A DNA stretch of 44,801 nt. Source: Bacillota bacterium (lineage in GTDB: Bacteria > Sysuimicrobiota > Sysuimicrobiia > Sysuimicrobiales > Segetimicrobiaceae). The position numbers and the translations under genes are program-made. The notes beneath the pieces were generated by a model, which worked only from the letters and a program-made list of their open reading frames with translations, searched no databases and was not told where the DNA came from. The stretch is taken from positions 1 to 44,801 of the forward strand of contig JAJPIA010000078.1 of assembly GCA_021324975.1 (NCBI GenBank), read 5' to 3'. Below are positions 24,412-25,978 of this stretch, in pieces (the stretch's first letter is position 1; the number at the start of each line of letters is the position of its first letter).

Positions 24412-24448
24412 ACAAAAAGCCGGCGCGGGGCAAGCTACCCCGCGCCGG
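24412..24448 (-). terminator. Rho-independent terminator
   Basis: On the minus strand CCGGCGCGGGG, a 7-nt loop, CCCCGCGCCGG, then CTTTTT. The 11-bp perfect GC stem followed by a T-run is a textbook intrinsic terminator. It lies 30 nt after the stop codon of the 22-codon ORF at 24479-24547, the only minus-strand candidate gene directly upstream. Confidence 0.85.
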
Positions 24449-24478
24449 TCCCAGTCCACCCCTTACAATTGCGTCCGA

Positions 24479-24547
24479 TTAACGGACGATCATATGCCCC
24501 GTCAGGATCAGGAGCCCCGCACCCAGCAACAGCAAGGCCAGTAGCAT
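24479..24547 (-). CDS. Putative 22-aa hydrophobic micro-protein
   Basis: ATG at 24547, TAA at 24481-24479. The peptide begins MLLALLLLGAGLLILTG and ends in HMIVR, a single membrane-spanning helix with a basic C-terminal residue. TAGGGGGG lies at good spacing before the ATG. A small CGTCCG-ATTAA-CGGACG hairpin covers the stop codon, and a strong intrinsic terminator follows 30 nt later. Leu/Ile-rich single-helix peptides of this kind include toxic peptides and small transporter subunits such as KdpF; no partner gene is adjacent. Translation is inferred, not shown. Confidence 0.55.
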   Translation of the reverse strand: MLLALLLLGAGLLILTGHMIVR

Positions 24548-24791
24548 CGTGCACCCCCCTACTCAGTTTTTCCTCTTGTGCGTATTTTCCCCAGAGCAGT
24601 TCTCAACCTATCCGATCGAAAGGATGGCCTGCGCCGCTGGCATTACGATACCTCGCGTCCGCCGTGACGCCGGAATTGCGCGCAACTTGCCTTGAATTCG
24701 CGTGCGGCAACGCGGCCGGCGGACCAGCAATGTCTATGCCGATTTACGCGCAGCCTATTGGCGCGGCCGGGGCAGTACCTCGTCGGGGTAC

Positions 24792-24964: not shown

Positions 24965-25978
24965 ATGGCAATCCGCTTCGGTGCCGGCTTTCCCGGCTGC
25001 CGCGAGGGCACGGCATATCCAGTCGGATTTGTGAGCCCCGAGAACCTGACCACCTTCGCGCGCAGGGCCGAGGAACTCGGCTACTACTCGATCTGGTCCA
25101 ATGATCACCTGACGTCTCGGCAGGGTATCCGCGAGACACAGGCGGGCACTCCGAACTTCTATGAGCCGCTGGTCACCTACGCCAGCCTCGTCAATGTCAC
25201 GGAGCGGCTCCGCTTCATGCTCAGCACGATCGTCGTGCCCCAGCGCGACATCGTGCTCCTCGCGAAGCAGGTGGCCACGCTCGACCGGCTGAGCGGGGGC
25301 CGCGTCATGCTCGGCGTGGGCCTCGGCTCTAACCGGGAGGAATTCGAAGCGCTGCACCCCGCCCACAAACACGTCCACCGCGGCCGGTGGCTCGAAGAAG
25401 GCATCCGGGGTCTCCGCCTCCTCTTCGGGGACGCGCCCGCCAGCCTCCAAGGAGAGTACGTGCAGTTTGCGGGCGTCGAGCTGGCCCCGAAACCGAGCCA
25501 GGCGCCCTTTCCTGTGTACCTCGCGGCGCACAAGCCCGTCGGCCTACAACGGGTCGGCCGTCTGGCCGACGGGCTGATCCTGGCCGGACTCTCACCGGAG
25601 CGAGCCGGTCGGGCCTGGGACGCGGTGAAGGCCGCGGCGGCGGCGCACGGTAGGGATCCAAATGGGTTCAGCCTTCACGTGCAAACGTGGCTGACTTTCG
25701 GCGATGGCCAGCGGGACGCGGAGATCCGCGCCTTGCGCTCTCAACACCTCCGGAGAATGGCGGCGGAGACTCGCCGCTCCGAGGCCGACATCCTGGCCGG
25801 CTACCGTGCCGGCAACCTGCTCGGCACCCCGGCCGAGATCGTGGACCAGATTCGAGCATTTGAGGCCATCGGCGCGACGCACCTCGGCATCGTGTTTGTC
25901 GTGGACACGATGGAGGAGTTGCTGCACGATGTAGACGTCTTTGCGCGGAGCGTCATGCCGGCGTTTGCGGCAGCCTGA
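24965..25978 (+). CDS. LLM-class flavin-dependent oxidoreductase
   Basis: A 337-aa bacterial-luciferase-like TIM-barrel enzyme using reduced FMN or F420. Typical features are SPENLTTFARRAEELGYYS, IWSNDHL, STIVVPQRDIVLLAKQVATL, LSGGRVMLGVGLGSNREEFE and the C-terminal GTPAEIVDQIRAFEAIGATH. ATG 24965 opens the first strand (MAIRFGAGFPG). The Shine-Dalgarno is weak (GAGG close to the ATG, GGGGGA further up). Substrate unknown. The gene converges on the TcuB-like gene and has candidate operator site 1 upstream, linking it to the ALDH/GntR and DUF3830 promoters. Confidence 0.92.
   Translation: MAIRFGAGFPGCREGTAYPVGFVSPENLTTFARRAEELGYYSIWSNDHLTSRQGIRETQAGTPNFYEPLVTYASLVNVTERLRFMLSTIVVPQRDIVLLAKQVATLDRLSGGRVMLGVGLGSNREEFEALHPAHKHVHRGRWLEEGIRGLRLLFGDAPASLQGEYVQFAGVELAPKPSQAPFPVYLAAHKPVGLQRVGRLADGLILAGLSPERAGRAWDAVKAAAAAHGRDPNGFSLHVQTWLTFGDGQRDAEIRALRSQHLRRMAAETRRSEADILAGYRAGNLLGTPAEIVDQIRAFEAIGATHLGIVFVVDTMEELLHDVDVFARSVMPAFAAA

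Follow-up and report, generated by a model that had tools for sequence, protein, structure and literature searches.

TGH microproteins, a paralogous family of 20–23-residue putative membrane peptides in one Sysuimicrobiota family, and the sigmaB-type promoter motif found on about half of their genes

Does a hydrophobic ORF of only 22 codons encode a protein, and, if so, what kind of protein is it and where else does it occur? The ORF in question lies on the minus strand of the window, that is, the whole stretch of 44,801 nucleotides that was analysed. A previous sequence-only reading had taken it for a real, independently transcribed small gene, and had offered a regulatory RNA, a toxic peptide or a membrane microprotein as its product. 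The gene and its signals are as follows.

24479 to 24547, minus strand: putative membrane microprotein gene MLLALLLLGAGLLILTGHMIVR, 22 codons plus TAA, member of the TGH family described below
24552 to 24560, minus strand: Shine–Dalgarno sequence AGGGGGGTG, AGGGGGG(TG), ending 4 nt before the ATG
24583 to 24591, minus strand: sigmaB-type −10 box GGGAAAATA, 44 nt 5′ of the ATG
24607 to 24613, minus strand: presumed −35 region GGATAGG, a poor match to GTTTGG (spacer 15, score 13.0)
24472 to 24488, minus strand: 6-bp hairpin over the stop codon, CGTCCG-TTAAT-CGGACG, read from the sequence
24414 to 24448, minus strand: intrinsic terminator, with GC stem, loop and CTTTTT tail
24968 to 25978, plus strand: luciferase-like (LLM-type) monooxygenase/oxidoreductase (Pfam E 8e-48), the divergent upstream neighbour, given for context only

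The ORF was found exactly as had been claimed, and its own ribosome site, the Shine–Dalgarno sequence at 24560–24552, was present. The terminator proved real, with a 13-pair stem (24448–24420) followed by CTTTTTG, and no other terminator-like site was detected on the minus strand over the 1.2 kb scanned. No neighbour shares the transcript, as had also been stated: the upstream gene is divergent, an arrangement that is the same in a second genome of the genus (G002), and the next called gene downstream lies 792 nt past the stop codon, gene calls and orthologue assignments being those of a simple codon-score caller written for this analysis and not of a standard tool. Because a promoter-like element and a terminator are present and co-directional neighbours are absent, the claim of an independently transcribed small gene is supported. 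Rfam and ARAGORN searches of the window gave no match. An alternative GTG frame starting at 24554, which overlaps the ORF, was rejected, since the window and G002 products of this frame (a 327-aa open frame) diverge on comparison by eye.

The choice between peptide and RNA was then made on the codon pattern, a check that the sequence-only reading had itself proposed. The G002 genome carries the window locus at 80% DNA identity, and its gene differs from that of the window genome (G000) by seven synonymous and no nonsynonymous codon changes, the peptide being identical. A copy in a further genome of the genus (G001), which sits in a different neighbourhood, differs by 14 synonymous and no nonsynonymous changes, again with an identical peptide, whereas a random single change in the window ORF would have a 32% chance of being silent. 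Taken together, the G000/G002 orthologues, six in all, show 28 synonymous and no nonsynonymous changes; a tandem pair among them was compared over just its final 20 and 18 codons. Between G000 and G002 the −10 element GGGAAAATA (similar also in G001), the Shine–Dalgarno core GGGGGGTG and the terminator stem, with a poorer T run, were kept. In contrast, the stop-codon hairpin, which is present in the window as had been described, was lost: its counterpart in G002 reads CGTCCG-CTAAG-CCGCTACG, and it is not kept in the G001 copy either, so that this hairpin is probably incidental. Frameshifts with retained hairpins had been named as the mark of an RNA, whereas the codon changes observed were all silent. 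Together with the loss of the stop-codon hairpin, this shows that the peptide is under selection, and by this codon evidence we regard the ORF as a real protein gene. One further DNA match, of 27 bases in G041 (L003), looks like chance.

We use 'TGH microproteins' as our own label for the family of the window peptide. A protein search at E≤10 of 12 genomes of the same GTDB family detected relatives in 10, most of them full-length, and a profile built from 18 rows (A2) identified members in 12 of 12. A second profile, built from 54 distinct peptides (A3), gave 67 matches at E≤0.01, with 3–12 per genome; over 43 genomes of the phylum its matches were confined to 12, all of the window's GTDB family, and none was found in the 31 other Sysuimicrobiota genomes. 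Over 386 genomes, mostly of other phyla, A2 likewise detected nothing in the 374 beyond the same 12. The window peptide scored E 1.1e-8 with A2 and 3.8e-5 with A3, being in both training sets. In a collection of 84,980 species, the degenerate DNA pattern WATGHxxxR-stop, which catches WATGH-type members only, was found in nine stretches, all in metagenome-assembled genomes named 'Terrabacteria group bacterium ANGP1' or 'Bacillota bacterium Centralia_MAG_45/47'. The NCBI taxonomy of ANGP1 is Ca. Segetimicrobium genomatis, Ca. Segetimicrobiaceae, Sysuimicrobiota, and the host family of the TGH copies is apparently the uncultured Ca. Segetimicrobiaceae, whose members are soil bacteria.

For 18 members, Pfam returned weak matches only (the strongest to Bombesin, at E 0.019, and the window peptide having no match) and NCBIfam no match at E≤1. 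No relative was detected in the PDB at E≤10, no pattern match in viral contigs, and no tblastn match in plasmids or phages with the L108 peptide, a kind of query that the BLAST low-complexity filter may mask. No description of the family was found in the open-licence literature searched. The TGH family is thus undescribed, absent from the libraries searched and confined in our searches to one Sysuimicrobiota family. The core LWATGH(L/M) resembles the C terminus of vertebrate neuromedin B/bombesin, and Pfam Bombesin weakly matches 9 of the 18 members; this likeness is almost certainly a coincidence.

We tabulated 66 loci and kept 64 for the peptide and promoter counts, dropping G000:C81 (L056; internal TGA, E 0.1) and G009:C40, which is cut by the contig end and is probably the same locus as C82. 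Two copies examined later (G006:C5 and C34) stand outside the 64. All 64 copies encode 20–23 residues, and 32 encode 22. Counted from the C terminus of the 54 distinct peptides, T at −7 and G at −6 are invariant (54/54 each), H at −5 occurs in 53, A at −8 in 48 and G at −13 in 40, while the chain ends in R (46 peptides), Q (five) or H (three). The C-terminal signature is A-T-G-H-(M/L)-(I/V)-(L/V)-R, and the chain always stops four residues past the H position, with no copy longer. The window peptide has the features that define the family: 20–23 residues, one hydrophobic helix, and T-G-H with H fifth from the end. Mean hydropathy is 1.9, and charged residues are nearly absent outside the C-terminal end. 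By the positive-inside rule, an established principle of membrane topology, this composition, with charge nearly confined to one end, suggests an N-out/C-in orientation. The glycines at −13 and −6, seven residues apart, would share one helix face, and they recall the mid-helix glycine required for dimerisation of the E. coli protein YohP (PMC7549839).

Based on the upstream regions, a common motif, GTTTGG-N14/15-GGG(T/A)AAA, was identified on about half of the copies. In-sample, 39 of the 64 copies scored above 9, compared with 10 of 297 other genes, while ten random draws of 64 background sequences, fitted identically, gave 12–17. In held-out tests at a threshold of 8, a model trained on the other genera detected 14 of 24 copies in the window's genus (5/125 other genes), and the reverse test detected 19 of 40 copies in the other genera (5/172 other genes). 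The exact motif occurs at five sites in the 4.4 Mb of G000, two of them at TGH genes, and at 63 sites in the 12 genomes, where the reversed pattern, used as a control, matched 12 times. Sixteen of these 63 sites are correctly oriented and no more than 110 nt upstream of a copy, where 0.004 would be expected, an enrichment whose P value is not unbiased, as the exact pattern was derived from the same sequences. The fairer evidence is that of the held-out tests and of two later copies; the motif was present in L137 and L138, which were outside the training. No good promoter match was found in 21 of the 64 copies.

The published sigmaB consensus is GTTTAA-N15(±2)-GGGTAT, for which a spacer of 14 appears optimal (PMC9847131), and −35 elements are described as less conserved in the sigmaB regulon of S. 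coelicolor (PMC9847131, PMC8346170). The TGH motif resembles the sigmaB promoters of B. subtilis and S. coelicolor in its −35 GTTT, its spacer of about 14 and its −10 GGG(T/A)A (PMC9847131, PMC8346170), but it leans towards GTTTGG at −35, and exact matches are few across the genome. For the window copy itself, sigmaB-type control is less certain than for the family, because its −10 box is good and conserved but its −35 region is GGATAGG instead of GTTTGG.

Genes for SigB/F/G-type sigma factors were matched in 43 of 43 phylum genomes, in 18 of them above the curated cut-off. Since such matches include the 31 phylum genomes without the TGH family, the regulator is not TGH-specific. One of these genes in G000 is the following.

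5819 to 4989 of L126 (G000:C55), minus strand: SigB/F/G-type sigma gene with the motif; counterparts L129 (G002) and L128 (G001)

This second SigB/F/G-type gene has the motif upstream in G000, G001 and G002 (scores 13.8, 14.9 and 13.8, respectively), in G000 about 110 nt before the ATG, which suggests that it is autoregulated. In G000 and G001 the first SigB-type gene (L125, for which only 232 nt of upstream sequence were available, and L127) showed no such motif, and none was seen in L130–L133 and L135.

The copies are mostly scattered solo genes in unrelated neighbourhoods. The gap to the upstream gene has a median of 174 nt and a minimum of 50, a same-strand gene follows within 60 nt in only 6 of 63 copies, and a strong hairpin (score at least 11) follows the stop codon in 26 of 64 copies, compared with 1 of 320 shuffles. 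Several orthologue groups hold their position across species: an amidohydrolase adjoins L055, L060, L070, L073 and L086 (by Pfam for L055, by sequence similarity for the rest), and a tandem pair, with copies about 200 nt apart, is found at L053 (G000:C97), L058, L068 and L096, with a divergent cupin gene on one side and, on the other, a TPR protein that looks secreted (Pfam on L053 only). The second copy of this pair has a sigmaB-type promoter and the first does not. Guilt by association was tried and gave no functional theme: 73 representative neighbours fell into 83 Pfam families, none in more than four members, and stress-regulator domains among them were limited to STAS in two and SpoIIE in one.

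Some individual loci are of note in their own right. At L072 and L077 (G007:C32 and G009:C41), the microprotein gene is convergent with that of a 1117–1135-aa PAS-GAF-SpoIIE phosphatase-HATPase_c_2-STAS fusion, a whole partner-switch module in one chain, and a STAS protein adjoins one G005 copy. In G001, three copies of the window's LTGH subtype (C69, C60 and C3) lie at unrelated loci, and such similarity as was detected between them does not extend beyond about 100 nt around the ORF, which would fit joint duplication or movement of promoter, ORF and terminator.

Among known systems, the TGH family resembles YohP, which is a single gene in E. coli, in kind, but is not detectably homologous to it (hhalign probability 5%, 6 aligned columns). 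Both have a single helix (predicted for the TGH peptides) with a mid-helix glycine and a later T-G (IGLLVVTGV in YohP), whereas YohP lacks the H-x-x-x-R end and has lysines. The YjcZ-type proteins of Bacillus (TIGR01732/PF09680) are lineage-restricted, multi-paralogue membrane proteins of about 25 residues, but the TGH members gave neither an NCBIfam match (18 members, E≤1) nor a YjcZ-type Pfam match. YohP is described as a 27-residue inner-membrane protein, produced under stress and starvation, which dimerises and is mainly N-out/C-in (PMC7549839, PMC12719787), lowers the membrane potential and protects against stress (PMC12719787).

Other explanations of the family were also weighed. That the locus yields only a regulatory RNA, with an incidental ORF, fits the terminator stem kept in G002, but is largely refuted by the synonymous-only changes, the loss of the stop-codon hairpin, the divergent untranslated regions and the empty Rfam search of the window, and is barely credible; of the three options offered previously, the membrane microprotein is best supported and the regulatory RNA is rejected on the codon pattern. 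The C-terminal eight residues, as the most conserved part, could be exported and cleaved as a pheromone, but the C-terminal Arg/His and the uncharged N terminus predict a C terminus on the inside, and no peptidase, transporter or regulator recurs among the neighbours; we consider such a signal precursor very improbable. CydX, KdpF and AcrZ are small accessory subunits of membrane complexes, and each TGH peptide might likewise serve one membrane complex, with paralogues for different, related complexes. The strict T-G-H at a fixed C-terminal distance suggests a specific binding site and several orthologue groups persist across genera, but no conserved partner gene lies beside the copies, as the neighbour count above indicates, and scattered solo genes with their own promoters would be unusual for dedicated subunits. 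This proposal is possible, although we hold it only tentatively.

TisB and Ibs are type I toxin peptides, and a toxin of this kind would be silenced by an antisense RNA and depolarise the membrane on release. The TGH genes share with those of DinQ, TisB and Ibs the organization of solo genes for short hydrophobic peptides, putatively stress-controlled in the TGH case; their multiple copies, which toxin genes sometimes have too, and their terminators also speak for this reading. However, cross-species sequence constraint is much stronger on the TGH peptides than on type I toxin peptides, and their cross-species identity and invariant polar T-G-H are not obviously needed for membrane disruption. 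DinQ, a peptide with a single TM segment, is reported to depolarise the membrane and to be paired with an antisense antitoxin (PMC3567139). The search for an antisense antitoxin suggested by the sequence-only reading was run as a promoter scan, in which antisense sigma70-like promoters downstream of the copies showed no clear excess (6/64 compared with 31/640 shuffles at a score of at least 8; 1/64 compared with 3/640 at a score of at least 9), and antisense sigmaB-like sites were found in 1 of 64. We consider a type I toxin unlikely.

The explanation that we consider probable is that the TGH peptides are monocistronic, stress-induced, single-helix membrane microproteins under sigmaB-type control, which would oligomerise or bind a membrane partner. 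From the conserved peptide, its fixed size and signature, its many paralogues and the promoter motif that about half of the genes carry, we infer the regulation, packing and effector function as follows. A SigB/F/G-type alternative sigma factor, freed by partner-switch signalling under stress or starvation, would turn on the gene set together. Each peptide would insert into the inner membrane so that the uncharged N terminus faces outwards and the His/Arg end faces the cytoplasm, and may pack, with itself or with a partner, via a small-residue face formed by the G/A seven residues before the invariant G; such oligomerisation is suggested by composition. A putative membrane partner would read the T-G-H motif, and the effect during stress would be to adjust either the properties of the membrane or how active a complex within it is. 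More speculatively, the most recognizable targets of the SigB-type factor might be an expandable set of near-identical 22-residue helices, the stress response then acting largely through interchangeable microproteins that share a T-G-H contact, and not through large effector enzymes; we regard this as conceivable, but doubtful.

Proteins this short are smaller than gene finders usually accept. A global smORF catalogue notes that, at a length of about 20 residues, a match can hardly be distinguished from chance even when it is identical (PMC11364881). This 22-residue family is statistically secure through several features taken together: its paralogues, codon changes that are all synonymous, a promoter in common and a fixed signature. 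Stress-linked small membrane proteins are a known kind; what is new here is a set of paralogues that extends across a lineage and shares an invariant motif. The biology of small membrane proteins thereby gains a family whose invariant motif is directly mutable, and a phylum that has hardly been studied provides a link between such peptides and a sigma factor of the general-stress type.
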